Positions 17,285-18,150 of a DNA stretch of 21,161 nucleotides are shown piece after piece. Each line of letters begins with the position of its first letter. The stretch's first letter is position 1. The position numbers and the translations under genes are program-made. Origin of the DNA: a virus; the IMG/VR virus record IMGVR_UViG_3300029258_002055, positions 1 to 21,161 of that record; one strand, given 5' to 3'. The notes beneath the pieces are model-generated. The model did not search any database and was not told the DNA's origin. It was given only the letters and a program-made list of their open reading frames with translations.

Positions 17285-18085
17285 ATGGCCGGCTTCCTAT
17301 ATTTCCTGCCGAGTCTGCGAGGGATCACCGCGACGACCGCGGCGACGATCCTTCGCGAGCGGGGCCTCGCCGACGCGATCGACGCGCCCGGCCCGACCCG
17401 GCAGAGCACGCACCCCGACGCCGGCGACGGCCTGGTCCTCGCCGCCGAGGGGCACCCCGACGACCTGGTCGGGATCTGGCCCGACCGGCAGACCTGGCGG
17501 CGGCTGCCGCGCCCCGGCGCCCCCGACGCCCCGCCGGTCTGGATCGGCTACACGAACGACGCCCGCCCCGGGCCCGACGACCTGGCCCGCCCCGAGCAGC
17601 TCGACGGCCACCTGGTCACACTGGCCGACGGCCGGCCCTGGCTCGTGCCGAAGGCCCGCCGCTGGGTCGGGATCGACGGCGGCGGCTCGATTCAGTACGC
17701 GACCGCCGTCCCTCGCGTCTCCGAGCTCGACGACGCGGGCGCCTGGCAGCCCGGCCGGATCGTCGACCGCTTCGCCCCCTTCTGGCAGATCGCCGCCGAC
17801 TGGCTCGAGCACGTCGGCGTCGCCGCGGCCGCGGCCGAGGAGGAGGCAGGGGAGGGGGAGACCGCCCGCCTCGCCTTCGACTTCGACGGCCTCCACGAGG
17901 CGGCCGTCTCGGCCCTGGCGATCAACTACCGGATCGGCCCGCTCGAGGTCTCGATGCTCGGGCTCCTGACGACCGCCACGCCGGCGGCGGTCCTCGACGC
18001 GGCCGCCGACGTGCCCGGCTACTTGCAGCTCCTAAAAAAAAAGGCCGCCGCTGGTGGGCCTTCCAACAATGGGCCCGAGGACTGA
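17285..18085 (+). CDS. Tail assembly protein, zero-frame product of a -1 frameshift gene
   Basis: This 266-residue protein lies directly upstream of the tape measure. The N-terminus is hydrophobic (MAGFLYFLPSLRGI). The middle contains Trp/Pro-rich beta-type segments (VWIGYTNDARPGPDD, RPWLVPKARRWVGIDGG). The C-terminal part (205-255) is helical: ALAINYRIGPLEVSMLGLLTTATP. I do not recognise the family. Near its end the codons CTA AAA AAA AAG form a run of nine A with the slippery heptamer A AAA AAG. Normal reading stops at 18085, while a -1 slip continues to 18150, ten bases before the tape-measure ATG. This mirrors the lambda gpG/gpGT arrangement and suggests a chaperone-like role. Confidence 0.65.
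   Translation: MAGFLYFLPSLRGITATTAATILRERGLADAIDAPGPTRQSTHPDAGDGLVLAAEGHPDDLVGIWPDRQTWRRLPRPGAPDAPPVWIGYTNDARPGPDDLARPEQLDGHLVTLADGRPWLVPKARRWVGIDGGGSIQYATAVPRVSELDDAGAWQPGRIVDRFAPFWQIAADWLEHVGVAAAAAEEEAGEGETARLAFDFDGLHEAAVSALAINYRIGPLEVSMLGLLTTATPAAVLDAAADVPGYLQLLKKKAAAGGPSNNGPED
18034..18043 (+). other. Slippery run for programmed -1 ribosomal frameshifting
   Basis: Nine consecutive A (18034-18042) followed by G contain A AAA AAG in the correct phase (18037-18043), the same heptamer as the E. coli dnaX frameshift site. In such GC-rich DNA a run of nine A is exceptional. Downstream, GGGCC (18056-18060) can pair with GGCCC (18072-18076), and GGCC pairs are available nearer by, as possible stimulators. 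The -1 frame is open to 18150. Confidence 0.78.
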
Positions 18086-18150
18086 CCCCCGACTACCGCC
18101 CGACACCGGCCGACGCGATGGCCCTGGCCGACGGGCTCGACCTGACCTGA
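18043..18150 (+). CDS. -1 frame extension of the tail assembly protein
   Basis: After a -1 slip at the A run, 35 further residues follow, beginning GRRWWAFQQWARGLTPDY and ending with ADAMALADGLDLT before TGA. The fusion product would have about 288 residues instead of 266. Codon choice in this frame is GC-rich at third positions as in neighbouring genes, and the stop lies 10 bases before the tape-measure start. There is no start codon of its own near the junction. In lambda-like tails the minor frameshifted chaperone links tape measure to tube subunits; the same role here is inference. A one-base error in the A run could also create the appearance. Confidence 0.65.
   Translation, partial: GRRWWAFQQWARGLTPDYRPTPADAMALADGLDLT

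Follow-up and report, generated by a model that had tools for sequence, protein, structure and literature searches.

Tail chaperones made in two forms are a textbook case of recoding, and in lambda and most long-tailed phages this recoding is assumed to take place on the ribosome. The logic of the lambda pair, gpG and gpGT, has been described previously (PMC5009743). For phages of Paenibacillus larvae, AAAAAAA, GGAAAAA and TAAAAAA have been proposed as slip sites in genes of tail assembly (PMC6256562). Slippage of the RNA polymerase is also known: there is proof of transcriptional slippage at A9-A11 for dnaX of Thermus and tssM of Citrobacter (PMC5009743, PMC4256274). The gene described here belongs to an unrelated family with the same two-form logic, and the way in which its site is conserved suits polymerase slippage better than ribosome slippage.

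The recoded gene and its neighbours

The window, by which we mean the whole stretch of DNA analysed, is the complete IMG/VR record IMGVR_UViG_3300029258_002055 (21,161 bases, linear, probably a fragment). It is a contig of a tailed phage and carries a tail module in addition to the genes for the terminase, the portal, the protease-capsid protein and the head decoration protein. The host group is likely to be Planctomycetota; this is inferred from the relatives of the recoded gene, and the host of the window itself is not shown. The features of the window are as follows.

695-2692, terminase
8089-9654, portal
9560-11896, fused protease-capsid protein, a single gene of 778 aa (PHROG 4523, the fused protease and major head protein family, 3.3e-93)
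13289-14248, head decoration
15969-16889, + strand, tail tube (major tail) protein, 306 aa (AlphaFold model, VIA-align, BFVD)
16943-17269, + strand, small gene of unknown function, 108 aa, between the tail tube gene and the recoded gene
17285-18085, + strand, recoded gene, zero-frame product of 266 aa (short form)
18034-18042, + strand, run of nine A (A9), the putative slippage site, with A_AAA_AAA and A_AAA_AAG both in the phase prone to -1 slippage
18043-18150, + strand, -1 frame extension, 35 codons and a stop, GRRWWAFQQWARGLTPDYRPTPADAMALADGLDLT
18161-19942, + strand, tape measure protein, 593 aa (profile matches of relatives)

In the zero frame the A9 reads CTA AAA AAA AAG GCC, and the phase prone to -1 slippage is held by both A_AAA_AAA (18034-18040) and A_AAA_AAG (18037-18043). 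The stop codon of the -1 frame lies 65 bases 3' of the zero-frame stop and 10 bases 5' of the ATG at 18161. The long form, which consists of the zero frame from 17285 to 18042 followed by the extension, has 288 residues; it shares residues 1-252 with the short form, and its C-terminal 35 residues are read in the -1 frame. The initial annotation, made from the sequence alone, had claimed the nine A's, an A AAA AAG in the correct phase, a -1 frame open for 35 codons, and the distances of the two stops from each other and from the tape-measure ATG. All of these claims held, and A_AAA_AAA was found to be in phase as well. Its claim of native codon use in the extension held only roughly, the GC3 being 0.86 in the extension versus about 0.96 in the recoded gene. 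When the window was dinucleotide-shuffled 300 times, just three of the shuffled sequences contained a run of nine or more A or T.

The start of the tail tube gene was re-assigned from the GTG at 15504 to 15969. The AlphaFold model of its product (pLDDT 90.8) was compared with known structures by VIA-align, which gave Z values of 17.2 to 8xan, 17.0 to the T5 tail tube (9iny) and 16.4 to P74-26 (8ed0) and covered 265-266 of the 306 residues. The tail tube proteins that the model matches at Z 16-17 are those of T5, P74-26 and SH-Ab15497; its BFVD matches carry the name major tail protein. The gene upstream of the recoded gene is thus predicted by the model to have a tail tube fold of the T5/P74-26 type. 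For the downstream gene, PhageMin_Tail was matched by 6 of 23 relatives of the tape measure gene (best 2.8e-8), and several of the 23 matched PHROG tape-measure families. The recoded gene therefore sits between the tail tube and the tape measure, and the order of tail tube, small gene where present, recoded gene and tape measure is kept in most relatives. That is, the slot to which the initial annotation had assigned the gene, upstream of the tape measure, was confirmed.

Two further observations concern this region. The small gene is optional: genes of 97-129 aa occupy the same slot in L004, L016, L052 and L053, and it is absent in other relatives. It is possible that the 108-aa gene at 16943-17269 encodes a second assembly factor. 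In addition, a stretch of 53 bases near the start of the recoded gene (17321-17373) is 82% identical to 14330-14382, 3 kb upstream on the same strand, and may represent a small internal duplication or a shared coding motif.

The model of the short form (pLDDT 89.8, pTM 0.86) has a beta-rich N-terminal part and a C-terminal part that is helical from residue 161. The sole match to stand out in the viral fold library was BFVD A0A6J5LCU1, named 'Tail assembly chaperone' (probability 0.99), and this match is weak (E 6.8e-3, TM 0.27/0.49). Foldseek and VIA-align searches of the PDB with the short form returned nothing beyond weak matches, all to small alpha-beta domains (Z at most 3.3), which do not prove a new fold. 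The initial annotation had described the 266-residue protein as unlike gpG, and this held: it has no sequence likeness to any known tail chaperone. With a tail tube gene upstream and a tape measure gene downstream, we think it very likely that the recoded gene encodes a tail-assembly-chaperone pair, as that annotation had suggested. The suggestion is supported, yet the function is inferred from the gene order, the architecture and one weak fold match and is not shown directly.

Conservation of the A run and the extension

Relatives of the recoded gene were sought by protein pattern and profile in IMG/VR and GTDB contigs, whose assemblies are of mixed quality. The IMG/VR and GTDB genomes yielded 42 distinct relatives, 19-46% identical and for the most part from Planctomycetota, so that the gene belongs to a large group of phages without cultured members; after duplicates and two truncated loci had been dropped, the family set comprised 43 sequences including the window. 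The search of GTDB contigs yielded four Planctomycetota records and one MAG labelled Armatimonadota. Relatives occur in 11 of 392 Planctomycetota genomes, and 291 Armatimonadota genomes gave one match, which was already in the set. As a separate matter, L041 and L042 are near-alike prophage tail modules from MAGs of one project that were binned as Planctomycetota and Armatimonadota, respectively, and the assignment to Armatimonadota may be a mistake of binning. KKK was contained in only one of the six patterns (YLQLLKKK), which was used in the first search only; after that, the queries were N-terminal and NYR motifs or a profile ending 5' of the run. Because these later patterns and the profile left the run out, the run was hardly selected for by the search. 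The protein family is absent from the collections searched: tblastn and blastn found no relative of the recoded gene in 50,697 GenBank phage records, and sequence searches of Pfam, PHROGs and the PDB with 38 members, and with the extension peptides alone, returned nothing convincing.

A single long A run is present at the 3' end of the gene in 39 of the 43 sequences (38 relatives and the window). Its length is A9 in 32 genes, A10 in six and A7 in one (L027); A8 does not occur. In all 39 the frame that bears the motif after the run is the -1 frame, which stays open for at least 31 codons in every case. The extension has 31-62 residues in the family and carries the motif RWxxYRRWxxGxxPxYRPTxADL. 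When the 35 codons after the run were compared, the mean pair score was 47.6 in the -1 frame versus 18.7 for shuffled peptides, and the zero and +1 frames scored 23.2 and 23.5. The zero-frame tails stop after 2-48 codons and show no conservation. Only two other A/T runs of nine or more were found in 339 kb of the relatives. A separate start codon for the extension was ruled out: ATG, GTG and TTG are missing from the first 12 codons of the -1 frame in 35 of the 39 genes, the window among them.

The four sequences without the run fall into two kinds. L045 (reverse strand, GC 75%) has no A run and possesses a zero-frame G_GGA_AAA at the corresponding place at the 3' end of the gene, followed by an extension in the -1 frame, GRWALLRAWRSGLVEHEPTVAELVVATTATG. 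L028 (5001-5657), L043 (5001-5705) and L054 (reverse strand) keep the short form and have neither run nor extension; their recoded genes stop just short of the next gene. These comparisons show that the run and the extension are kept or lost jointly, that the long form is under selection, and that the run is kept for making the long form.

The initial annotation had asked whether the A run and the -1 C-terminus are conserved in homologues, and this check was passed, as the -1 extension with a common motif is present in all 39 run-bearing sequences. It had also stated that reads with eight or ten A's, a continuous frame in homologues, or homologues without the extension would refute the claim. 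No gene has A8 or a continuous frame, and the frame is still split in each of the six A10 genes. Three homologues without the extension were found, and all three are also without the run.

Polymerase slippage, ribosome slippage and other explanations

A ribosomal site requires just seven bases in one codon phase. In the 39 run-bearing genes the run starts in codon phase 1, 2 and 3 in 12, 17 and 10 genes, respectively. An in-phase A_AAA_AAA is present in all of them, and the surplus A's that flank this heptamer are split as 2+0, 1+1 or 0+2. Their total is two in 32 of the 39 genes, three in six, none in one, and never one. With generous base frequencies, the chance of this pattern is about 1e-18 if the sequences are taken as independent and 7e-9 if they are counted as 16 lineages. 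The tree needs at least 15-17 changes of phase and just 6 changes of length (parsimony minimum). The count of phase changes rests on an uncertain tree, the deep branches of which are unsupported; phase changes are also seen within the supported pairs L018/L035 and L022/(L039, L040). A requirement for lysine as the cause of the run was ruled out, the ratio of AAA to AAG being 91:7 in the run versus 133:135 elsewhere in these genes.

A run of 9-10 A is thus found in every phase, and the ribosome would require only the in-phase A7; this pattern points to transcriptional slippage, for which run length held in any phase is the expected mark. The uninterrupted run of about nine or more A is present in 38 of the 39 genes, and its length is constrained independently of phase, so that these two marks of transcriptional slippage are met. 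The initial annotation had taken A_AAA_AAG as the key feature, and this part has to be corrected, since what is constrained is that the run has 9-10 A, whichever its codon phase. Transcriptional slippage is therefore at least as likely as ribosomal frameshifting. In Escherichia coli, insertions dominate in A/T homopolymer runs, where deletions are rare, and the insertions rise exponentially with run length up to 9 (PMC5574713). Such a bias would account for the constant -1 direction. To the authors of GeneTack, a direction that never varies points to ribosomal frameshifting, and their heuristic for transcriptional slippage, which is not a defining feature, is the use of both directions among orthologues (PMC3711429). 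We did not find both directions among the orthologues: the direction is -1 in 39 of 39. Weighing these points, we lean towards transcriptional slippage, with an extra A in the mRNA, as the main mechanism, in the absence of RNA or protein data.

The main rival is ribosomal -1 frameshifting on A_AAA_AAA or A_AAA_AAG, which would give the same two proteins from the same gene and leave the surplus A's as tuning or as a by-product. Several points speak for it. The X_XXY_YYZ heptamer is in phase in all 39 genes and in L045, the direction is -1 throughout, and an in-phase A_AAA_AAA is unavoidable within any A9. In lambda and in other phages with long tails, it is accepted that the frameshift is ribosomal (PMC5009743), and AAAAAAA is a proposed slip site in the Paenibacillus larvae phages (PMC6256562). 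The A7 of L027 sits exactly in the ribosomal phase, and L045 carries a classic ribosomal heptamer; both fit ribosomal slippage, and the ribosomes of some hosts are thus presumably sufficient. An SD-like stretch of at least 5 bases upstream of the run is somewhat commoner than in control windows (21% versus 7%). What speaks against this reading is that the bases on either side of the heptamer should then be free to vary, whereas the observed total is 9-10 in 38 of 39 genes, in all phases and without any A8. Stimulators, which are common but not obligatory at ribosomal -1 sites, are not evident across the family: no family-wide signal of RNA structure was found in the 39 run-bearing genes (downstream z -0.12 to -0.48, upstream z about 0), and the SD-like stretch occurs in just 8 of the 39. 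We rank ribosomal frameshifting as the less likely of the two mechanisms, without dismissing it.

A second alternative is that the product of the recoded gene is no chaperone but a structural protein, or one for completion of the tail, of which the long form is a minor variant. In its favour, the short form, with 266 aa and a beta-rich N-terminal domain, is bigger than gpG, no tail chaperone was matched by sequence, and in three relatives another small gene of 155-187 aa (L015 5716-6195, L047 2292-2759, L050 2288-2851) intervenes before a larger, tape-measure-like ORF. On the other side, the slot between tail tube and tape measure fits a tail assembly chaperone, the C-terminal -1 extension stops near the start of the tape measure in most relatives, and the BFVD match fits as well, so that we consider this alternative unlikely. 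The last alternative is an artefact in which the true frame is continuous and is hidden by an error in sequencing the homopolymer or by decay of the gene. In its favour, homopolymers are prone to error, and a single added A would fuse the frames. This alternative is all but excluded. Among 39 sequences assembled independently in different projects, 32 have A9 and six have A10, each with the frame still split, and L045 is split likewise without a homopolymer. An exact A9 is found in 31 distinct relatives besides the window, one of them (L040) in the complete chromosome record CP087563.1, because of which the A9 cannot be a sequencing slip of the window contig.

Proposed working and comparison with known systems

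Under the preferred reading of transcriptional slippage, one start would give two proteins, the 266-residue short form and the 288-residue long form. The host RNA polymerase would slip on the A9 or A10 and add one A in a fixed fraction of the transcripts, and ordinary ribosomes would read these transcripts into the -1 frame, so that the ratio of short to long form would be governed by the run length. Ribosomal -1 slippage on the in-phase A_AAA_AAA within each A9 may contribute in addition, and it is the probable route in the A7 relative (L027) and the G_GGA_AAA relative (L045). By analogy, the two forms may work like lambda gpG and gpGT. That is, many copies of the short form would coat the tape measure, and a few copies of the long form would recruit tail-tube subunits via the RWxxYRRW...YRPTxADL extension; there are no binding data for either step. 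The combined proposal, a two-form tail chaperone made mainly by transcriptional slippage, is the one that we favour by a modest margin, and it has no wet-lab evidence.

In the open-access literature searched, we saw no report of transcriptional slippage for any tail chaperone, and absence there is no proof. The two-form tail chaperone as a kind is already known, as are A-rich heptamers in the tail assembly genes of other phages; because such heptamers have been proposed elsewhere (PMC6256562), the A's alone are not new. What is new is the protein family, the run length independent of phase, the natural replacement of the run by G_GGA_AAA and the joint loss of run and extension. A bolder reading, which we hold to be slightly more likely than not, is that this is an undescribed chaperone family, from phages mostly of Planctomycetota, in which polymerase slippage on 9-10 A sets the ratio and is naturally convertible with a lambda-type heptamer. 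If this is true, tail assembly requires a protein ratio and no particular mechanism. About 40 genes in three phases, together with the G_GGA_AAA swap, the A7 and the three losses, offer natural material for separating the mechanisms. With the help of the family, tail modules could also be located and annotated in phages of Planctomycetota, which have no relatives in the phage collection searched.

Comparing the locus with known systems, the likeness to the T5 pb6 and P74-26 tail tube proteins (Z 16-17) is one of fold and concerns the upstream neighbour, not the recoded gene. The likeness to lambda G/G-T lies in a gene between the major tail protein and the tape measure, in a short form and a -1 extended form, and in an extension that stops near the tape measure start. 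In contrast, there is no sequence relation to the lambda proteins, the short form is 266 aa long and begins with a large domain rich in beta structure, and the extension in the window has only 35 aa. The lambda site is G_GGA_AAG, whereas the site here is an A9 or A10 in free codon phase, L045 with its G_GGA_AAA being the exception. With the Paenibacillus larvae phages the locus shares an A-rich slip site in a tail assembly gene upstream; the difference is that the site there is an in-phase heptamer proposed from sequence, with no constraint on run length reported in the section that bears on it (PMC6256562). The poly-A sites of dnaX in Thermus (A9) and tssM in Citrobacter rodentium (A11; PMC4256274) differ in that they lie in cellular genes, tssM being part of a type VI secretion system, but they resemble what is proposed for the present gene in that an A9-A11 run lets one gene give two products in a set ratio without ribosomal stimulators.
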